Virus record (IMG/VR): IMGVR_UViG_3300010354_000592 | Coordinates: 1-25,111 of that record | DNA: 25,111 nucleotides | Strand: one strand, 5' to 3' | Origin: a virus | Shown here: in pieces, positions 5,540 to 22,454 of the stretch | How positions within the stretch are numbered: position 1 is the first letter of the stretch | Layout: the number at the start of each line of letters is the position of its first letter | Translations under genes and position numbers: made by a program | The notes under the pieces: model-generated | Database searches by the model: none | Seen by the model: only the letters and a program-made list of their open reading frames with translations | Told to the model about the DNA's origin: nothing

Positions 5540-6301
5540 ATGTTATTTAGTAAAAACAGAACACCGTCGGACGTTTATCGTAAAATTTACGAACAACATC
5601 ATGGCCCTATTCCAAAAGATGAATTTGGTAGAACGTTCGAAATTCATCACATCGACAATAATTCGGAAAATAATGACCCATCTAATTTAGTTGCCTTGTC
5701 GATACAAGAACATTATCAAGTTCATTACGAACAAGGAGACTGGGTAGCTTGTTTGGCGATGTCACATAGAATGAATCTATCACCAGAAGAAACATCACGA
5801 TTAGCCAGAAATAACGCCCTAAAACAAATAGAAAATGGCATTAACGCATTTGCCAATTTCACATTCGAAGAGCGAAGTAAGTTAGCCAAAAAAACTAATG
5901 CTGATAGAGTCGCCAATGGCTCACATCATTGGTTAGGCCCTAAGGGCAATAAAGAACGAGTTATGAATGGCACTCATAATTTTTTAGGGAACAACAATCC
6001 ATCTCATCGCCGCATGGCAGATGGCACTCATAATTTTTTAGGATTATCAGCAAAACGTGTTCAGGATGGTACTCACAACTTTTTGAAGGCAACTGGTGCC
6101 AATAATGTAAATTACGATCATACAATTTATCATTTCCTAAATGTCAACACTGGCGAAGAATTGCACACAACTCAACTCGATCTTAGAACAAGATACAATC
6201 TACTTCAAGGCAATTTAAGTGCAGTATGTAGAGGAGTTAAGAAATCATATAAGGGATGGGTAGTAAAAAATAACCCAAGAACGAAAAAAGAATCCGAATA
6301 A
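5540..6301 (+). CDS. HNH homing-type endonuclease
   Basis: This 253-residue protein has an N-terminal HNH nuclease core: PIPKDEFG, then IHHIDNNSENNDPSNLVAL (residues ~35-53), then EHYQVHY. The His pair, the Asn and the following His supply the expected catalytic and metal-binding pattern. The middle carries at least four copies of a short NGTHNFLG-like repeat (residues ~125-180), resembling the small DNA-binding modules of phage HNH enzymes. The C-terminus (DHTIYHFLNVNTGEEL...GWVVKN) matches the C-terminus of the second HNH protein at 10516-11118, so the two are paralogues. A good GAGGAG site precedes the ATG at 5540. The gene sits between the fibre and capsid genes against the local late-gene direction, as expected of an intergenic mobile endonuclease. 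The cleavage site is unknown; gene 23 or its flanks is a candidate. Confidence 0.85.
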   Translation: MLFSKNRTPSDVYRKIYEQHHGPIPKDEFGRTFEIHHIDNNSENNDPSNLVALSIQEHYQVHYEQGDWVACLAMSHRMNLSPEETSRLARNNALKQIENGINAFANFTFEERSKLAKKTNADRVANGSHHWLGPKGNKERVMNGTHNFLGNNNPSHRRMADGTHNFLGLSAKRVQDGTHNFLKATGANNVNYDHTIYHFLNVNTGEELHTTQLDLRTRYNLLQGNLSAVCRGVKKSYKGWVVKNNPRTKKESE

Positions 6302-10264: not shown

Positions 10265-10489
10265 TTATAAACCTGATCCCTGGGAGGGCGGAGCGTACTG
10301 TTTTCTGATTTGTTTTAGATTTTTTGCCTGTTCAAAAGCACGAACATCTCTCATTTTACGAAGCTTACTAATCATACCCAGAGTGAGCTTTTTTGTTTTT
10401 CTAGAGCTACCCCAAGTCAAACGACTGTTATCGTCTTTGACATCTTGTATGCCTTCTTGTGCCGCTTCATAAAATTCTCTTAGTATCAA
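10265..10489 (-). CDS. Small basic head-cluster protein (gp68 position)
   Basis: This is a 74-residue protein with a TTG start; AAGGA lies about 8 bases upstream, and the nearby ATG runs into an immediate stop. The conserved-looking core is KLTLGMISKLRKMRDVRAFE, then KNLKQIRKQYAPP (residues ~34-68), strongly basic and helical. I recall similar short proteins next to portal genes in marine T4-like phages. It sits between portal and gp67-like genes, so it may be a prohead core or vertex component, perhaps a shortened counterpart of T4 gp68 (141 residues). An exact TATAAATA late element lies upstream on the same strand at 10521-10528. Function is inferred from position only. Confidence 0.65.
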   Translation of the reverse strand: MILREFYEAAQEGIQDVKDDNSRLTWGSSRKTKKLTLGMISKLRKMRDVRAFEQAKNLKQIRKQYAPPSQGSGL

Positions 10490-10502
10490 GACATTTTCCT
10501 TG

Positions 10503-10510
10503 TATAAATA
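10503..10510 (+). promoter_or_regulatory. Exact T4-type late promoter TATAAATA for HNH gene
   Basis: This is a perfect match to the T4 late consensus. It lies 13 bases from the ATG at 10516, so transcription would start at or next to the start codon. It forms one arm of an inverted repeat with 10520-10528. Confidence 0.6.
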
Positions 10511-10515
10511 GGTAT

Positions 10516-11118
10516 ATGACTATTTATATCAAAAGACCAAGAAGTCCGATTTATAGAAAAATTTACGAGGAACACTACGGACCTATACCCAAAGATGACC
10601 AGGGTGTGTCATACGACATACATCATATTGACGGGAACCCAATGAACAATGATATTTCCAACTTGGTTGCCGTGTCTAGACAGGAACATTACGATATACA
10701 TTATCACCAAAGAGACTTCTCATCATGTTTTTCAATAGCAAAAAGATTAAATTTATCCAAAGAAGAACTATCCAAGTTAGCATCATTTGCTGGAAAAATA
10801 GGTGGTAGCAAGTCTAGAGAGCGAGTCAAAAATGGAACTCATAATTTGCTACGTAGACCTGACGGTAGTTCATCATCAGGTGACCGTTATAAAAAAGGAA
10901 ATCATCCTTTTCTAAAAATGAAATTTGATGGGCGCAACAATCCTAGATATGATGACACGATCTATATTTTTAGCAATATAGACACAGGTGAAACCGTTGA
11001 AATGACTCAATACGACTTCGTGAAACATTTTTCCCTAGAAAATTACAAAGGAAACATCAACTCAATGATAAAACATGGCAAGTTTAGGCACGTTAAACGA
11101 TGGACCGTGTTAAAATAA
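10516..11118 (+). CDS. HNH homing-type endonuclease, paralogue of the 5540-6301 gene
   Basis: Starting at the ATG at 10516 gives 200 residues beginning MTIYIKRPRSPIYRKIYEEH. The longer reading from 10459 adds 19 residues unlike the paralogue and would cross the promoter. The HNH core is IHHIDGNPMNNDISNLVAV (residues 35-53) followed by EHYDIHY. A single NGTHNLL unit is present, where the paralogue has at least four. The C-terminus (DDTIYIFSNIDTGETVEM...) aligns with that of the paralogue. The gene sits on the opposite strand inside the head cluster, between the portal and the 74-aa gene, and ends only four bases from the portal stop. No Shine-Dalgarno is visible. It is probably an intergenic homing endonuclease that arose from the same source as the other HNH gene. 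Confidence 0.83.
   Translation: MTIYIKRPRSPIYRKIYEEHYGPIPKDDQGVSYDIHHIDGNPMNNDISNLVAVSRQEHYDIHYHQRDFSSCFSIAKRLNLSKEELSKLASFAGKIGGSKSRERVKNGTHNLLRRPDGSSSSGDRYKKGNHPFLKMKFDGRNNPRYDDTIYIFSNIDTGETVEMTQYDFVKHFSLENYKGNINSMIKHGKFRHVKRWTVLK
10521..10528 (-). promoter_or_regulatory. Exact T4-type late promoter TATAAATA for 74-aa gene
   Basis: The reverse strand reads TATAAATA, 32 bases before the TTG start at 10489. It lies inside the first codons of the HNH gene on the other strand. Confidence 0.6.
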
Positions 11119-16198: not shown

Positions 16199-17023
16199 AT
16201 GAATCAAAACCCTCTGAAGCAATATTTTCGTCGTCCCAGCATTCATGTAACGATTCCCACTGGCGGAAAGCATTATTCTGCTCAGGTTTTAGAAGTTACC
16301 GAAACCGGTCAACTTCCGATCTATCCCATGACTGCCAATGACGAAATCATTTCCAGAACTCCTGATGCTCTGTTTAATGGATCAGCAGTAGCATCAGTCA
16401 TTCAGAGTTGTGTTCCTGCTGTAAAGAATGCTTGGGCGTTGGATGCTGCTGATGTTGAAGCACTAATGATCGCTATTAGAATTGCTACCAACGGCGAAGA
16501 AATGGATATCGAAACCACTTGCCCAGAATGTCGTGAAGAAAGTGCTTATGGAGTCAATCTTTCTGGAGTGCTAACACAGGTTCGTAATCCTGATTTTAAC
16601 ATTATCATGGAACTTGGCGATCTTCAAATCAAGTTTAGAAGTCTGACTTTCAAAGAAATGAATAATAACGGTGACGAACAGTTTGAAATTCAAAAACTAA
16701 CTCGTGAAGTTACTCAAATGGAAGACGGTCCTGAAAAGAATCGACTAGCTGGTCAATTACTAACACGAATGAACGAATTACAGTTCAAAATCATTGCTCG
16801 TTCTATTGAATATATCAAGACCCCTGAAGTTAGAGTCAATCAACAAGACTTTATCGTGGATTTCTTGAAGAACTGTGACAAGCGCATGTTTGAGAACATT
16901 CGTAATCGTAGTATGGAACTTAGAGAACAGGCTCAGAGCAAACAGTTAAAGATAGTGTGCCAACATTGTCAGCATAATTACGAACAGAAAATAGAGTTTA
17001 ACATTACAGATTTTTTCGTCTAA
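16199..17023 (+). CDS. 26: gp26-like baseplate hub / tail assembly protein
   Basis: This 274-residue protein resembles the T4-type baseplate hub gp26 family. Recognisable stretches include HVTIPTGGKHYSAQVLEVTETGQLPIYPM (residues ~16-44, given here only as a landmark), the DALFNGSAVASVIQSCVP segment, and RSIEYIKTPE...FLKNCDKRMFENIRN. Two CxxC pairs, C108/C111 and C254/C257, probably form one zinc ribbon. The start is fixed by AGGAG and a late element upstream. The stop at 17021 comes directly after a TTTTTTC slippery heptamer, and a strong hairpin begins two bases into the stop codon, so part of translation probably shifts into the -1 frame. Its position beside, but divergent from, the tape-measure gene recalls tail assembly chaperones. 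Identity to gp26 is by motif memory. Confidence 0.85.
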   Translation: MNQNPLKQYFRRPSIHVTIPTGGKHYSAQVLEVTETGQLPIYPMTANDEIISRTPDALFNGSAVASVIQSCVPAVKNAWALDAADVEALMIAIRIATNGEEMDIETTCPECREESAYGVNLSGVLTQVRNPDFNIIMELGDLQIKFRSLTFKEMNNNGDEQFEIQKLTREVTQMEDGPEKNRLAGQLLTRMNELQFKIIARSIEYIKTPEVRVNQQDFIVDFLKNCDKRMFENIRNRSMELREQAQSKQLKIVCQHCQHNYEQKIEFNITDFFV

Positions 17024-17061
17024 AGCTTCTCTATCTGTCTGTTGAAGACATAGAGAAGCTT
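17011..17061 (+). promoter_or_regulatory. Programmed -1 ribosomal frameshift signal
   Basis: The heptamer T TTT TTC (17011-17017) is in the correct register of the gp26-like frame (GAT TTT TTC GTC TAA), the standard X XXY YYZ form. After a five-base spacer, AAGCTTCTCTAT (17023-17034) pairs perfectly with ATAGAGAAGCTT (17050-17061). The helix can continue with GTCT/AGAC (17037-17040 with 17046-17049) past a two-base bulge. No T-run follows, so it is not a terminator. Confidence 0.82.
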
Positions 17062-17247
17062 GTACAATCAATGGAAACTGAATGTCGTTCTATTGAAAGA
17101 AACGCACTGAGACTTGCTTGGTATATGAGAGGTGGTATTCTCTATGAGGACGTACTTAACATGAGTCCTCAACAACGAGAAGAAATAGGCAATATCATAG
17201 ACGAGAACATGGAAACTACAAAGAAAACCGGGCTCTCATTTTTTTAA
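17017..17247 (+). CDS. -1 frame extension of gp26-like gene (frameshift product, ~76 codons)
   Basis: In the -1 frame the sequence stays open from the slippery site to TAA at 17245-17247. It encodes RLKLLYLSVEDIEKLVQS, then METECRSIERNALRLAWYM, RGGILYEDVLNMSPQQREE, and a KKTGLSFF end. It is clearly protein-like (helical, SVEDIEKL, WYMRGG, KTGLSFF) and, from memory, resembles the small ORF next to gp26 in marine T4-like phages and gp51-type hub assembly factors. There is no ATG, GTG or TTG in this frame before 17071, and that ATG has no good ribosome-binding site and would discard the SVEDIEKLV part. Translation as a fusion of about 349 residues with the gp26-like protein is therefore the simplest reading. 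This mirrors gpG/gpGT tail chaperones. Confidence 0.78.
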   Translation, partial: RLKLLYLSVEDIEKLVQSMETECRSIERNALRLAWYMRGGILYEDVLNMSPQQREEIGNIIDENMETTKKTGLSFF

Positions 17248-17288: not shown

Positions 17289-17954
17289 ATGCTTTTACCT
17301 TCAGACTTTGTTCCTACATGGTTATACATCAAGCAACACAATAAAACAGGCTTGAAATACTTTGGAAAGACGATCCGCAAAGATCCTATAAGATACCTAG
17401 GATCAGGAACTTATTGGACCAATCATCTAAATATACACGGTACCGATGTGACAACTATCTGGTGTAGATTATTTACCGATAAAGAAGAATTGACAGAGTA
17501 CGCATTGAATTTTTCCAAAAACAATAACATAGTTGAATCCAAAGAATGGGCCAACCTAGAATATGAAGATGGATTATCTGGATCAGGGCTCAGAAGAAAA
17601 AATTCAATAGAAACTATTGAAAAGAGAAGAATAAAAAATACAGGTAAAAAAAGAACAGATGCCCAACGCAAAAGAATGAGCGATGCACAAAAGAACAGAA
17701 CTCCTCATGTTTATACAGATAATGAAATAGAGGTTATAGGTAATAAGATATCAACTGCTCTTAAAGGAAGAGTAATGTCAGATGACCATAAACAAAAATT
17801 ATCAGAAAGTCTCAAGGGTAAAATGTTAGGAATTGCTAAAACAGAAGAAACAAAACAAAAAATGCGAAAGCCTAAATCACTCGAACATCGTAAGGCTATT
17901 TCAGACGCAAGAAAAGCAAAATATGCGGCATTACGACAATCTAATAACTCATAG
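17289..17954 (+). CDS. GIY-YIG-type homing endonuclease with NUMOD3-like repeats
   Basis: This 221-residue protein has an N-terminal variant GIY-YIG nuclease: WLYIKQHNKTGLKYFGKT (residues 11-28), PIRYLGSGTYWTNHL (33-47) containing the probable catalytic Arg35, and a later EWANLEY segment. The first half of the motif is degenerate (WLYI rather than GIY). Residues ~115-215 contain repeated basic units such as TGKKRTDAQRKRMSDAQK and LKGRVMSDDHKQKLSESLKG. These are typical NUMOD3 DNA-binding modules of homing endonucleases. It lies between the frameshift gene and the non-coding block. No Shine-Dalgarno is visible; a late-type AATAAATA lies 14 bases before the ATG. It is probably a free-standing mobile endonuclease rather than a phage core gene. 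Confidence 0.83.
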   Translation: MLLPSDFVPTWLYIKQHNKTGLKYFGKTIRKDPIRYLGSGTYWTNHLNIHGTDVTTIWCRLFTDKEELTEYALNFSKNNNIVESKEWANLEYEDGLSGSGLRRKNSIETIEKRRIKNTGKKRTDAQRKRMSDAQKNRTPHVYTDNEIEVIGNKISTALKGRVMSDDHKQKLSESLKGKMLGIAKTEETKQKMRKPKSLEHRKAISDARKAKYAALRQSNNS

Positions 17955-18031
17955 TTAGTCATTTATCGTTTTTTAACAATTCTATTTCAAAAAACGCGCG
18001 CATAACTAATAACATTAGATCTGACAGATAA

Positions 18032-18052
18032 GGATGAGACCGAGTCTCATCC
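18032..18052 (+). terminator. Strong hairpin after GIY-YIG gene
   Basis: A nine-bp perfect stem GGATGAGAC/GTCTCATCC has a CGA loop. No T-run follows directly, so termination is less sure than for the next hairpin. Confidence 0.4.
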
Positions 18053-18056
18053 GCTC

Positions 18057-18076
18057 AAAGCGGCTAAGCCGCTTTT
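18057..18076. terminator. Possible bidirectional terminator
   Basis: An eight-bp stem AAAGCGGC/GCCGCTTT with a TAA loop is followed by TTTT on the forward strand and TTT on the reverse. It is compatible with stopping the GIY-YIG transcript, or it may be part of the structured region. Confidence 0.5.
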
Positions 18077-18641
18077 CGCTTGTTTATATCAGAGAAATCT
18101 CTTTTCTGCCAAGACAAAAGATAGAAAAGACAACTCAGACGAGGCATTTAAGTGAGGGCTTTAGCCCGAGCTATGCCGAAGTCTGGTAGCAGCAGGGCTG
18201 CTACCGCTGTTATCCGACTATTATTCTCTTTATAACTCAGATACTTGTTTTCTATCTCATTTCGGGTTTTACGTCAAGAACACAGAGATGTCTTCTCGTC
18301 GTACTCAAAGACACCTCATCTGCTCTCCCCCCTTGTTTTCCTTCATTTCGACTAACTATTTTTCGTTAGTCAGAGTAGAACGTTCGTTATAGCTCACACC
18401 GATAGACTCTATGTACTTCTTCACCTGTTGATCTGTCAGGCACAGTAATCTCCTTCCGAGAGGAATTTTGCGTTTAGAGACTTGTTGTGGTTAGTATTGA
18501 TCCCACTTTGGTCTTGCTCCACGGGCAGTGTCGGCTTGCCACGAGTACGTTTCTATTTTTTAGAACAGAGTGTTGTTTCTCTGTGTTCAGCGTGTCGCTT
18601 TCACACGCTGCTGATTATTGTATCCTGTAGTGTAGTAAAGT

Positions 18642-19196
18642 CTAGGGTATAAGTGTAGTTGAGATATCAGAAATGTCGGATGAACAATAACGTTGAAACT
18701 CTGCTTGATTGGTCATAAAAAACTGATCAATATCAAGAATGCTCCACGAGCCAAAAGAATCACTAATATATTTGATATAAGAACCAGATAGGTTCCATGA
18801 TTTATTTGACTCTACCGCGACCCATTCTGACTTTCGTGTAATTTTGAAAAATAGAACATTACAATCGTCAGGATCGCTAGCCTCTAAGAGTTGCTCAATC
18901 CACTGATCAAGTTGATTACACTTACCTGATAGTAGTTGATGATAGCTAAAATCACTATAACTCTTACATTCAGCATTAAGTAATTTAAAAGACTCTGGGG
19001 GAGTGATATCTCCCTTAGCACTACGAATTTGTTGTTCAGTGAGCACATGCTTACGATAGCGATTAGTTCCACCCACATATGCTCCTGAACCTGTGATGTT
19101 TCTAATAAACTGCTCGTTGTAAATAGCAGTCAATCTTGCTGCAACAGTTCGTTCGTAGTTTGATCCCTTTATCTTACTTTTGCTTGGCATAAACAT
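18642..19196 (-). CDS. PD-(D/E)XK-type nuclease, Holliday-junction-resolvase-like
   Basis: From the ATG at 19196 this is 184 residues. A GTG at 19214 would add six residues but falls inside an inverted repeat, while AGAG lies six bases before 19196; the ATG at 19190 is also possible. The pattern KGSNYER (E15), then KGDI (D63), then NAECKSY (E76, K78) is the PD-(D/E)XK nuclease core as found in archaeal Hjc and phage resolvase-like enzymes. An early GSGAYVGGTNRYRKH segment is likely DNA-contacting. It follows gp46 by 30 bases, downstream of the gp47-gp46 recombination nuclease, so a role in resolving or trimming recombination and replication intermediates is plausible. A restriction-like or host-DNA-degrading nuclease is an alternative. 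Confidence 0.7.
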   Translation of the reverse strand: MFMPSKSKIKGSNYERTVAARLTAIYNEQFIRNITGSGAYVGGTNRYRKHVLTEQQIRSAKGDITPPESFKLLNAECKSYSDFSYHQLLSGKCNQLDQWIEQLLEASDPDDCNVLFFKITRKSEWVAVESNKSWNLSGSYIKYISDSFGSWSILDIDQFFMTNQAEFQRYCSSDISDISTTLIP

Positions 19197-19207
19197 ACTT
19201 ATCTCTA

Positions 19208-19248
19208 TTATCACTGTGCTAAAAATTTATTCTTCAGCACAGTGATAA
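19208..19248 (-). repeat. 13-bp perfect inverted repeat at the end of gp46
   Basis: TTATCACTGTGCT (19208-19220) and AGCACAGTGATAA (19236-19248) flank a 15-base loop that contains the gp46 stop codon. On the mRNA the hairpin ends just before the AGAG site of the downstream nuclease. There is no T-run. It may be a processing, stability or translational-control element. Confidence 0.7.
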
Positions 19249-22200
19249 CTACTATACCCTCCTTCTTTTACTACTCGTAGAATACTACTAACTCGACTGC
19301 TAAGTTCATCACGATGACTTACAAGCCAAATGCTCTTACTTCTACGTCGAGTCATATCTTTGAGCAAAGCAATACTTGACTCTACTCCTGCTGTATCAAG
19401 TCCATTGTCTATGAGTTCATCAACAAATAGAACATTGATAGGAGCATATAAACTTTCCCATACATCACGAAAAGCAAAACTCAATCCAATGATCAGTCTA
19501 GTACGCTCACCACGACTAAGATTATCAAAGTCAAGATCACGACCAAGTTCAGTGATTTCAACCGTTAGATCGTTCTGAAATACTACTTGATGAGGCAAGC
19601 CCATTTTATCTAGATAGTGAGTCAAACGATTGTTAAGATAACTGAGATTCTGTTCAATGATTCGCTTTCTAACAAAACTACGCTTGTTTGTTAAGAGATC
19701 AAGTAAGAAATCTTGATGTTGAAGCACTCGATTAAGTCGATTGATTTCTTCGTAGTCCACTGTTTGAACAGCGTTTTGCTCCATATCTTCAATCTGTTCA
19801 TGATATGGATCTTGATCTGCAAGTCGTCGTTCTAAATCATCGGCTAGTTTGGTTACTTGACTTTGATGCTTCAGTGCTAACTCTAGTGTATCGTAATGAA
19901 CTCGTGGAACTTGTCCCAACTCGCCCACTGCTGCTAGATCTTGTGCATGCTGCTTATCAGTATTAGTTCGTTCGGTCTCATACTCTGAAATGGTAGTTTC
20001 TAGATACTGTACTAGTTCTAGATGTTTAGTTCTAGCAGTGTCTAGTTTGTTCTTGTGCCCAAGAGCCAACTCTAGTGATTCGTAATGTACTCTAGGCGCA
20101 GTGCCCAGTTTGCCCAACGATTTAATATGCTCATCATGTTCTAAAAACTGCGATTCAGCGCTAAGATAACTTAAACTGACTTCTTGTAGTTGTTTGTGCT
20201 TGCCACGTAAGATAGTTTCATGCTGATCATCATGTAGAGCTTGACCACAAGCATAACACTGATGATTCTCTAACTTGGCTATCTCTGCTTCTAGCTTATG
20301 ACGATTGTTATTAAGTTCAGTCATATGCTTTCGAGCACTGTCTCTCCATTTTTTAGCTTCGATAAGCGTCTTGTTGTTATCGTTCCAAGTTTGTAGTAGT
20401 CTGTGATTCTCTACTTCTTGCTCGATAACAATACTCTCTAAACTGGTTATAATATCTAACTGTGATTTAATATCTTTCTTAATCGCTGCTACTGAGCGAA
20501 CATGCTTGCTATCCAGTGTAGCACGAGTGCTCGTATATCTGGCTGTAATGTTAGCTATCTCAGATCGCTTGTTATTATAAGTTTCAAGATCACGATGTGA
20601 GATAATCTCTTGATCGATATCAATTTTAGTAAGAGCAGTTAGTTCTTCAGTAAGATTCATGACATCCTGATCGCGAGTAGCAGTCCACAGTCGCTGACGT
20701 TTCTTTAAGTTGTCGATCTGTTCTACAATACGACGATTGGCTTCTTCTAGACCCTTGATACGATACTGTTCGCTCTGAATATTATCACGAGTTTGTTTGT
20801 TTAGCTCTTTGATCTTTTCTGCTCGCTCACTCAATAACGTAATACCCAGTAACTGCTCAATGATCTTTCGCTGATCAGCAGCACGAAGCGCTAAGAAGGG
20901 TTCATTATAAGTATTAAGAGCAATAATTTGCTTGAACATCTCGGGTTCCATTTGTAACAAACGTTCTATTTGCTCTTGAGTTTCACGACTATCGCCCTGA
21001 CTGTCATCCACAATCTGTTGTTCTTGATTGTTGATAAAGAACTTTAACACATTTGGCTTACGACCACGAATGATTTTATAATCAACTCCATTAACTTCGA
21101 ACTCTACTGTACTAAGCATGTTCTTTTGATTGGTTCTATTAATTAGATTGTCTTTACGAATATTATTAATAGCAGTGCCAAACAGCGCATAACTGAGTCC
21201 CTGTATAATCGATGTATTGTGTGTTACTACATAGTTATCAGTAACATACAAATGATCGGGATGATCGATATAAATACACTGACATTCACTATCTTCTATT
21301 CTATCAATGGCAGTTATTTGTAATCTAAGTTGATTTTTATACTGATATGATTCTGATATTTTGTTCTTTTTTCTGTTTAAGTAAAACAGATCTCGTGGGT
21401 TATGATATCTAATTCTAACGATATATGCTGTTTTGCCCTGTCTAACTTCCCCTAGATATGAGAATCTTGGGGCTTTTTCTGTGATTCTTGCTAAGCCTCC
21501 AATACTTCGAACTAGATCTGCTACATCTAATGCCAGTTGTTTACTAGTAGTGCAATAAGATATAGAACCAGTTCTATCAACAGTTCCGTCAGTATCTAAT
21601 AATCCTTGAAGCAGTTCTATTTTCTGTCTAACACTGATGTTTTTGTACTGATTCGGAATGAACTTGTCTTCGCTATTGACATTCAAGTTCAAATCCGCGA
21701 TATATTTTCTAAAAGGATGAAGAATCTTTTTAGGATGGTGTTGCTTCTCGTTCATGACAACACGATACGAAATTTTTTCACGAGTAGTTGTATGAACCTG
21801 TTTTAGAGAACAGTTGATCAACTGAAGTTCTTTGTCTACTCTAGAAACTATCTCAGAATCACAAGACGTTATTCCCGGAGACGATCTAAGATTTCCGTCC
21901 CCTATCATAGCACCTAGTGTGTAGGGTGCTATTGAAACAACAGAATCTAGTGATTCGGTAGGTGTAAATAATGGAACATACAGATAATGTAACTGTTTAC
22001 TCTTCTTGTTACGATTACTATCAAGTAAATCACCGATCTCTTTAGTTGTTAAGATTCGTGTATGATTCTTATCATTCTTGTTTCTAAACTGATGACTATA
22101 GATGTTCCATAAATGTTCTTCGCTGGCCTCACATGTTCTTCCATCCTTAAATGTAAGACGATATACAGGAATTTTACCTTGAGGATAAATTCCTAGAACA

Positions 22201-22454
22201 GTAGATGATTGACCGTCATGTGCTATCACTCGATCCCCAACTTGTATATCTTTCATCAGAGTCCATCCTGATTCTGTAAGAATTTTACTAGTCAGAGGTT
22301 GAGCTTTCCCGGTACCATTCCTAGCACCTTCTCCGCCCAAGTCTAAGTTCTCGCCAAGAATCAATGTTAGATCCTGACGATCAAAATCAATAGTCTGTGT
22401 TACTTGTCCAATGCTTAAAAAGTTGCGCAAACTAAGTGTTTTAATTTTAATCAT
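19227..22454 (-). CDS. 46: Recombination endonuclease subunit gp46 (Rad50/SbcC-like), intein-interrupted
   Basis: The 1075-residue precursor is about 712 residues once residues 51-413 (the intein) are removed. The SMC/Rad50-type ATPase is clear. It shows LSLRNFLSIG at the start, the Walker A loop GARNGTGK|TS split by the intein after Lys50, a coiled coil with a zinc hook CYAC (C733/C736), signature LSRGE (979-983), Walker B VLFVDE (1008-1013), and VSHRDE. With gp47 it resects DNA ends for recombination-dependent replication and host DNA breakdown. The start overlaps the gp47 stop as ATGA, and with no Shine-Dalgarno this implies translational coupling. The host part is longer than T4 gp46 (560). 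Residues ~780-800 and ~843-863 repeat the same PRVHY..LELAL block. Confidence 0.95.
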   Translation of the reverse strand: MIKIKTLSLRNFLSIGQVTQTIDFDRQDLTLILGENLDLGGEGARNGTGKAQPLTSKILTESGWTLMKDIQVGDRVIAHDGQSSTVLGIYPQGKIPVYRLTFKDGRTCEASEEHLWNIYSHQFRNKNDKNHTRILTTKEIGDLLDSNRNKKSKQLHYLYVPLFTPTESLDSVVSIAPYTLGAMIGDGNLRSSPGITSCDSEIVSRVDKELQLINCSLKQVHTTTREKISYRVVMNEKQHHPKKILHPFRKYIADLNLNVNSEDKFIPNQYKNISVRQKIELLQGLLDTDGTVDRTGSISYCTTSKQLALDVADLVRSIGGLARITEKAPRFSYLGEVRQGKTAYIVRIRYHNPRDLFYLNRKKNKISESYQYKNQLRLQITAIDRIEDSECQCIYIDHPDHLYVTDNYVVTHNTSIIQGLSYALFGTAINNIRKDNLINRTNQKNMLSTVEFEVNGVDYKIIRGRKPNVLKFFINNQEQQIVDDSQGDSRETQEQIERLLQMEPEMFKQIIALNTYNEPFLALRAADQRKIIEQLLGITLLSERAEKIKELNKQTRDNIQSEQYRIKGLEEANRRIVEQIDNLKKRQRLWTATRDQDVMNLTEELTALTKIDIDQEIISHRDLETYNNKRSEIANITARYTSTRATLDSKHVRSVAAIKKDIKSQLDIITSLESIVIEQEVENHRLLQTWNDNNKTLIEAKKWRDSARKHMTELNNNRHKLEAEIAKLENHQCYACGQALHDDQHETILRGKHKQLQEVSLSYLSAESQFLEHDEHIKSLGKLGTAPRVHYESLELALGHKNKLDTARTKHLELVQYLETTISEYETERTNTDKQHAQDLAAVGELGQVPRVHYDTLELALKHQSQVTKLADDLERRLADQDPYHEQIEDMEQNAVQTVDYEEINRLNRVLQHQDFLLDLLTNKRSFVRKRIIEQNLSYLNNRLTHYLDKMGLPHQVVFQNDLTVEITELGRDLDFDNLSRGERTRLIIGLSFAFRDVWESLYAPINVLFVDELIDNGLDTAGVESSIALLKDMTRRRSKSIWLVSHRDELSSRVSSILRVVKEGGYSSYHCAEE
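21216..22304 (-). mobile_element. Class-3-like intein with LAGLIDADG homing endonuclease in gp46
   Basis: 363 residues interrupt gp46 between Lys50 and the Thr that completes Walker A. The insert starts AQPLTSKILTESGW, so residue 1 is Ala, not Cys or Ser, and it ends VVTHN before Thr. Hint-domain blocks are visible: VGDRV (22-26), EEHLW with His64 and Trp66 in block B, and the CQC-containing block F near 341-343. Trp66, Cys343 and Thr361 match the W-C-T triad that defines class 3 inteins, which splice without an N-terminal nucleophile. LGAMIGDG (130-137) and LLQGLLDTDG (231-240) are the two LAGLIDADG motifs, both keeping the acidic residue, so the endonuclease looks intact. ATP binding by gp46 requires splicing. 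Confidence 0.9.

Follow-up and report, generated by a model that had tools for sequence, protein, structure and literature searches.

A conserved structured RNA in the gap between recombination and baseplate genes of a T4-related phage

An intergenic gap in a T4-type phage genome very probably holds a conserved structured RNA read from the minus strand. The DNA analyzed, hereafter the window, is 25,111 bases long, and the gap occupies its positions 17955-18641. We treat as demonstrated the conservation, the covariation, the strand, the synteny, and the absence of coding; the best explanation as a whole, a minus-strand structured RNA with a conserved core and a variable hairpin cluster, we consider likely, with its action in trans a tentative part. 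The slot in which this RNA lies is occupied by other RNAs, or candidates for them, in related phages, some of them cultured.

The gap and its gene neighborhood

The window encodes T4-type head, baseplate, and recombination functions, among them the major capsid protein, prohead protease, portal, gp26, the late sigma factor gp55, gp47, and gp46. Its capsid protein has its best matches, at 66-68%, in jumbo phages (e.g., Vibrio phage 2.275.O, Phosso, and PA5oct). The gap separates two convergent gene arrays. The plus-strand array comprises gp26, a gp51-like gene, and a GIY-YIG endonuclease gene; the minus-strand array comprises gp55, gp47, gp46, and a PDDEXK/RusA-like resolvase gene. It spans 687 bases between the GIY-YIG stop at 17954 (+) and the resolvase stop at 18642 (-) and, as the preliminary description held, contains no plausible gene. 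The PDDEXK_15/RusA-like resolvase gene (18642..19214, -) is immediately upstream of the RNA and on the same strand, and beyond it lies the SbcC-like gp46 gene (19227..22454, -) with its LAGLIDADG-type intein. The other boundary of the slot is formed by the convergent gp26 baseplate gene and the gp51-like gene that overlaps it (16199..17247, +), and a GIY-YIG/NUMOD3 homing endonuclease gene (17289..17954, +) is inserted between gp51 and the RNA. In the related loci examined, the GIY-YIG gene has no match at the slot position; its placement in the slot is seen only in the window.

Several other features of the window deserve mention. The LAGLIDADG-type domain of the gp46 intein interrupts the ATP-binding motif (GTGK/AQPLTS...VVTHN/TS), and relatives L002-L004 lack the intein. 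Three free-standing homing-endonuclease-like genes, two of them HNH_3 and one GIY-YIG/NUMOD3, lie on the plus strand (5540-6301, 10459-11118, and 17289-17954). No tRNA genes were found in the 25-kb window.

The preliminary description counted at least six perfect stems of 7-9 bp in the gap, and we find these at 18032-18052 (9 bp), 18057-18075 (9), 18185-18205 (9), 18588-18610 (8), 18350-18371 (7), and 17967-17996 (8). The comparison with shuffled controls that it proposed also came out in its favor: on both strands the whole gap folds better than 100 of 100 dinucleotide shuffles (minus strand, -215.4 kcal/mol, z -6.2; plus strand, -196.9, z -4.5). The excess sits in a cluster of hairpins at 17955-18322 (z -6.6 minus, -5.4 plus); the conserved region, 18323-18584, has a z of only -1.1 and is thus no more stable than shuffled sequence. 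Because the excess comes from the variable cluster, fold energy is a poor guide in this gap and by itself misses the conserved part, and the case for an RNA therefore rests on sequence comparison.

On the minus strand the variable cluster (17955..18322) is 3' of the conserved core. It includes stems at 18285-18317, 18185-18205, 18057-18075, and 18032-18052, the last of which, read 18052-18032, is a strong, terminator-like hairpin, and it has no sequence match in relatives. A three-tier stem noted earlier at 18136-18185 belongs to this variable minus-strand cluster and lies outside the homologous core. An 8-bp hairpin at 18588..18610 (strand not assigned), 5' of the first conserved helix, is not kept in relatives either. 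A pattern search with one palindrome of the gap (GGTAGCAGC) returned only an unrelated phage, a chance match. We rejected a mere pair of Rho-independent terminators as an account of the gap, given that a 240-nt core is conserved beyond the hairpins and the T-run.

Conservation and covariation of the type-B RNA

We define type B as the RNA of the window plus its homologues at the gp46-resolvase/gp51-gp26 slot. The type-B core, recognized by blastn and CM R2, comprises about 237 nt on the minus strand (18323..18559; model R2 spans 18325-18555), and the conserved part overall extends over 18323-18584 (~240-260 nt). By blastn, the core matches L273 (77% over 237 nt, 1e-44), L274 (81% over 237 nt, 1e-55), and L276 (91% over 128 nt). 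R2 scores 229 bits at the slot of the window, a value reached by construction, as the window is one of its 7 training sequences, so that blastn is the independent support. Core homologues are present in L272-L277 and in the mosaics L235 and L240, all with the same slot order of gp46, resolvase, gap, gp51, and gp26. The two mosaics, from a gp26-based scan, share WIN 256-318 (WIN position p equals window 18642 - p), a single hairpin with compensatory changes, and L240 also shares WIN 85-142; L272-L277 were retrieved with a motif of the WIN 256-318 hairpin and with an 18-mer taken from the relatives found next. The resolvase-based relatives yielded no useful match to the window RNA.

Among relatives at the same locus, nucleotide identity in the core is 79-86% (71% for L271), compared with 56-63% in the adjacent resolvase gene. 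This bears on the idea that the gap is degenerate coding sequence, such as a decayed endonuclease gene, with structure arising by chance. On the minus strand, a stretch of 44 open codons (18356-18490) that ends in LTDQQVKKYIESIGVSYNERSTLTNEK could be taken for such a remnant, and the slots of some relatives do hold inserted genes. We nevertheless regard decay as extremely unlikely: the stretch has no Pfam or PHROG match, stops and indels not in threes break it in relatives, and the core is more conserved than the genuine gene beside it. Across the type-B homologues, stops occur in all six frames, and no ORF survives.

The locus also varies in content. The slots of L235 and of L272/L276 are nearly identical in the 3' halves of the RNA and differ in the 5' halves, a sequence pattern that suggests recombination inside the RNA locus. 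Enlarged slots of 0.8-1.2 kb occur in L240/L271, L209, L211, L225, L246, and L263. In L240, the insert is an ORF of ~90 codons (MAKLDYQRISREK...) on the 5' side of the RNA core; the slot therefore accepts cargo genes.

Read on the minus strand, the conserved region contains a series of short helices. Helix b0 (18565..18584), directly 5' of the core, is ACAGAG-AAACAACA-CTCTGT in the window; relatives have AGTC/GACT, CAGGTC/GACCTG, or CAGGT/ACCTG as the stem and keep the loop AAACAA. Helix b1 (18524..18540; GGCA/TGCC) encloses an invariant CCGACAC, and two of its pairs have changed on both sides. At 18479..18513, helix b3 (GAC/GTC) surrounds helix b2 (GTGG/CCAC) with its invariant CAATACTAA loop; b2 reads GAGT/GCTC or GCGT/GCGC in relatives, and one pair of the b2/b3 unit occurs as U-A, A-U, and C-G. 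Helix b4 (18450..18465; TTCC/GGAG) has a conserved TCGGA loop, with two pairs changed on both sides and one more on one side, and helix b5 (18424..18440; CCTG/CAGG, or GCCCG/CGGGC in relatives) has the loop ACAGAYYAA. The stem of helix b7 (18350..18371), GACTAAC-GAAAAATA-GTTAGTC in the window, depends on lineage (GACTAAC/GTTAGTC, GGTTGT/GCAACC, CCAGT/ACTGG, or AATAGT/ATTATT), and its loop GAAAAATA is kept in most members. Throughout b0-b7, then, the stems vary yet remain paired, and the loops AAACAA, CCGACAC, CAATACTAA, TCGGA, and ACAGAYYAA are fixed or almost fixed.

The curated arms, in the minus-strand reading, contain 128 Watson-Crick, 13 G-U, and 1 mismatched cell, and 0 A-C cells. In alignment A8 of the core, which has only 6 distinct rows, 100% of cells are paired, 6 of 15 pairs show two-sided change, and covariation is 0.431, against 0.210 in shuffled and at most 0.116 in slid alignments. 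Covariation among homologues, a check that the preliminary description had named, is thus found in the form of compensated stems, and with homologues and covarying stems in hand its proposal of a large structured phage RNA in the gap is upheld. Its argument about strand is reversed: it took G-U pairs to favor the forward strand, but the homologue alignment has 13 G-U and 0 A-C cells on the minus strand, and for this reason the minus strand is favored.

The same counts weigh on a reading of the gap as a DNA-level element beside SbcCD-like genes, that is, a replication origin or a recombination or packaging site whose palindromes act as DNA. Perfect palindromes that fold on both strands, and neighbors that are recombination genes, are in keeping with such a site. 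However, on the gp46 strand G-U cells outnumber A-C cells in type B (13:0), in type A (53:27), and in the cultured phages (50:20; both described below), and fixed loops within changing stems are an RNA pattern; a DNA element is accordingly very improbable.

RNAs and RNA candidates at the same slot in other phages

Scores of uncultured phages with the order gp46-(resolvase)-[gap]-gp51-gp26 carry a second RNA type, type A, in the slot. A gap of 407-676 nt, from resolvase stop to gp51-like stop, is present in all 73 of the 73 relatives in the resolvase-based set with both ends placed; most of the rest of that set end before gp51. An alignment of 39 non-redundant type-A gaps reveals invariant blocks that include CTCCTTGAG, TCTGGAG, ACCGA, ATGCGTTGC, ACTACAG, and TTTACAGGGCAACCGGTAGCG. 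Type-A helices are recovered by unbiased mutual information, with two-sided change in 28 of 32 modeled pairs. They include a pseudoknot in which a hairpin loop pairs with a stretch ~120 nt downstream (paired in 39/39 sequences, with change at 5/5 pairs). An exact type-A 21-mer occurs in at least 78 IMG/VR contigs, and the type-A model, R1, matches 81 of the 83 loci searched and most loci of another set too. Membership of the window in type A was considered and rejected, as the type-A model and a nucleotide HMM both failed on the window: R1 returned only noise on the window gap. R2 in turn found no type-A match. Because R1 and R2 miss each other's members, common descent of the slot RNAs can only be conjectured.

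In a tree of resolvase and gp26, type B groups with L192/L193 (type C), beside the type-A clade, and the divergent L068, L072, L074, and L003 (type D) fall outside. L074 has the type-A 5' domain (nhmmer E 2e-11). Type C (slots of 618-623 nt in L192 and L193) has no Rfam match; it shows a possible long-range helix, GACTAYCCC / GGGGTKGATATAGTC, the 3' strand of which resembles group I P7. The hairpins GAACGAAGTGAG / CGCTTCGCTC recur near the gp51 stop, at the 3' ends of type-A and type-B gaps (e.g., L041 and L272) and in cultured gaps. They are possibly bidirectional terminators; similar short motifs occur across many lineages. In L087 (PA5oct), ~1.5 kb at the equivalent place (1479-2990) has only tiny annotated ORFs, and neither RNA model matches. 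A 17-mer present in 21 bacterial contigs was dismissed, its count being near chance by our estimate and the best model score 21 bits (E 0.018) among loci picked by motif.

An unannotated gap of 683-836 nt is also present in five cultured jumbo phages, PBECO4, Munch, Erwinia SNUABM_19, Pectobacterium CBB, and Xanthomonas XaC1 (via gp26), the hosts of which are E. coli, Salmonella, Pectobacterium, Erwinia, and Xanthomonas. It lies between gp51 and gp46, where an endonuclease VII-type gene, oriented opposite to the RNA, replaces the resolvase. These gaps, taken as a conserved RNA candidate of ~700-840 nt, align with one another (69-77% over 200 to 800 nt; pairwise blastn E 1e-19 to 1e-157), with two-sided change in 42 of 128 predicted pairs. 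Directly upstream of the conserved region stands a TATAAT or TATACT box, and in four of the five phages the gap contains a covarying hairpin with a T-run after it. By blastn there is no useful match between the window gap and the cultured phages, nor with types A and B as queries, and nhmmer comparisons between the groups gave nothing convincing. By eye, CGTTGC...ACAGAGCAACCCG in the cultured gaps is arranged like CGTTGC...ACAGGGCAACCGG of type A, a resemblance with no statistical match.

The main rival reading assigns the RNA to the 3' untranslated part of the gp46-resolvase mRNA as a cis-acting element, whose folded 3' end and hairpins terminate transcription and block 3' exonucleases with no separate RNA being made. 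In the window the RNA does follow the resolvase stop immediately and on that gene's strand, with the terminator-like minus-strand hairpin at 18052-18032; its relatives have variable hairpins 3' of the core, and the search for a promoter in types A and B gave nothing above background. Independent transcription is thus supported in the cultured group only. There, an endonuclease VII gene of opposite orientation precedes the RNA, which also has a TATAAT-like box immediately upstream and is therefore no simple 3' UTR in these phages. Moreover, one hairpin suffices for a terminator, which contrasts with a 240-nt core with invariant loops and with the pseudoknots of type A. Taken together, we find the untranslated element somewhat unlikely.

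Possibly all the slot RNAs, in types A to D and in the cultured phages, form a single RNA class of great age and very rapid evolution that acts in trans during infection; the recurring CGTTGN...NCAACCG element, which would link types A and D to the cultured type, points to a pseudoknotted core common to the class. We put the chances of this reading at slightly short of even.

Relation to known RNAs and proposed mode of action

The preliminary description cited GOLLD as a precedent in size, without claiming a match, and proposed Rfam searches that included GOLLD, HEARO, and IMES. No link to these emerged: the whole window has no Rfam match at gathering thresholds, and the gap alone gives only meaningless E values of 2.7-9.4. 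Searches of the window and related slot RNAs against Rfam 15 at gathering and permissive thresholds likewise returned nothing useful. The large phage RNAs GOLLD and ROOL frequently lie near tRNAs (PMC12286853). GOLLD, with a conserved 3' part and a variable 5' part, resembles the slot RNA in being phage-encoded, elaborate, hundreds of nucleotides long, and divided into one conserved and one variable part (PMC12286853); the window RNA, in contrast, is shorter, has no Rfam match and no tRNA in the window, and is conserved 5' and variable 3'. ROOL is likewise phage-encoded and highly structured, with pseudoknots (here seen in type A), and its partner is not known (PMC12286853); the window RNA differs in having no Rfam match and no tRNA nearby and in its locus among the recombination and baseplate genes of T4-like phages. 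The structured RNAs manA and wcaG of T4-like cyanophages (PMC2864571) are associated with metabolic genes, which they presumably regulate, whereas the slot RNA is much larger, lies between convergent arrays, and has no Rfam match. A jumbo-phage review mentions non-coding RNAs for PhiKZ only (PMC13282480), and our literature search, with most subscription papers outside its scope, found no description of the slot RNA. It is probably a new class of phage RNA.

Group I introns also call for comparison, as the RNA might be a ribozyme or the persisting core of a former self-splicing intron that carried an endonuclease. The window is rich in homing endonuclease genes, one of them next to the gap, type A has interleaved long-range helices, type C carries GACTA...GATATAGTC, and in our reading the short UAAACG-CGCA..UGYG arrangement of type B recalls group I P3-P4. 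Against this, no Rfam group I or II match (Intron_gpI included) appears at gathering thresholds or at E<=1, and P7 and the G-site were not found in types A and B. Nor is there a split gene: the upstream resolvase gene is complete, no exon follows the RNA, and the downstream genes are convergent. The GIY-YIG gene, for its part, is on the opposite strand and missing from the slot in relatives. Rfam and the missing exons thus exclude assignment to the group I family, and an intron derivative is improbable.

We favor instead a structured RNA made as a discrete transcript. It lies at the 3' end of the gp55-gp47-gp46-resolvase array, and in its core, from 18584 to 18323, short helices present invariant unpaired loops, which may bind a protein or a host RNA. 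The strong, variable hairpins after the core probably end the transcript, protecting or terminating the RNA. Discrete transcription is proposed from the cultured relatives, with their TATAAT box and covarying hairpin with a T-run (4/5); in that group a separate RNA may be made early in infection from the TATAAT box. That the RNA acts in trans, serving as a stable scaffold or decoy, is a tentative proposal, which we judge ahead of a 3' untranslated element, a ribozyme or intron derivative, and a DNA element, in that order. A very large set of jumbo-type phages related to T4 keeps in this slot a large RNA, or a candidate for one, of a type specific to the lineage.

Few large structured phage RNAs have been described, and their function is not known; the slot RNA or RNAs add a case with a fixed place in a wide T4-related group. 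As an unannotated counterpart exists in phages grown on laboratory E. coli, its expression, structure, and role are directly testable. Among the Asteriusviruses (121Q- or PBECO4-like), the Sharanji record gives K-12 MG1655 as host. The slot would also be a striking example of an RNA locus whose position is fixed and whose sequence turns over from one lineage to the next.
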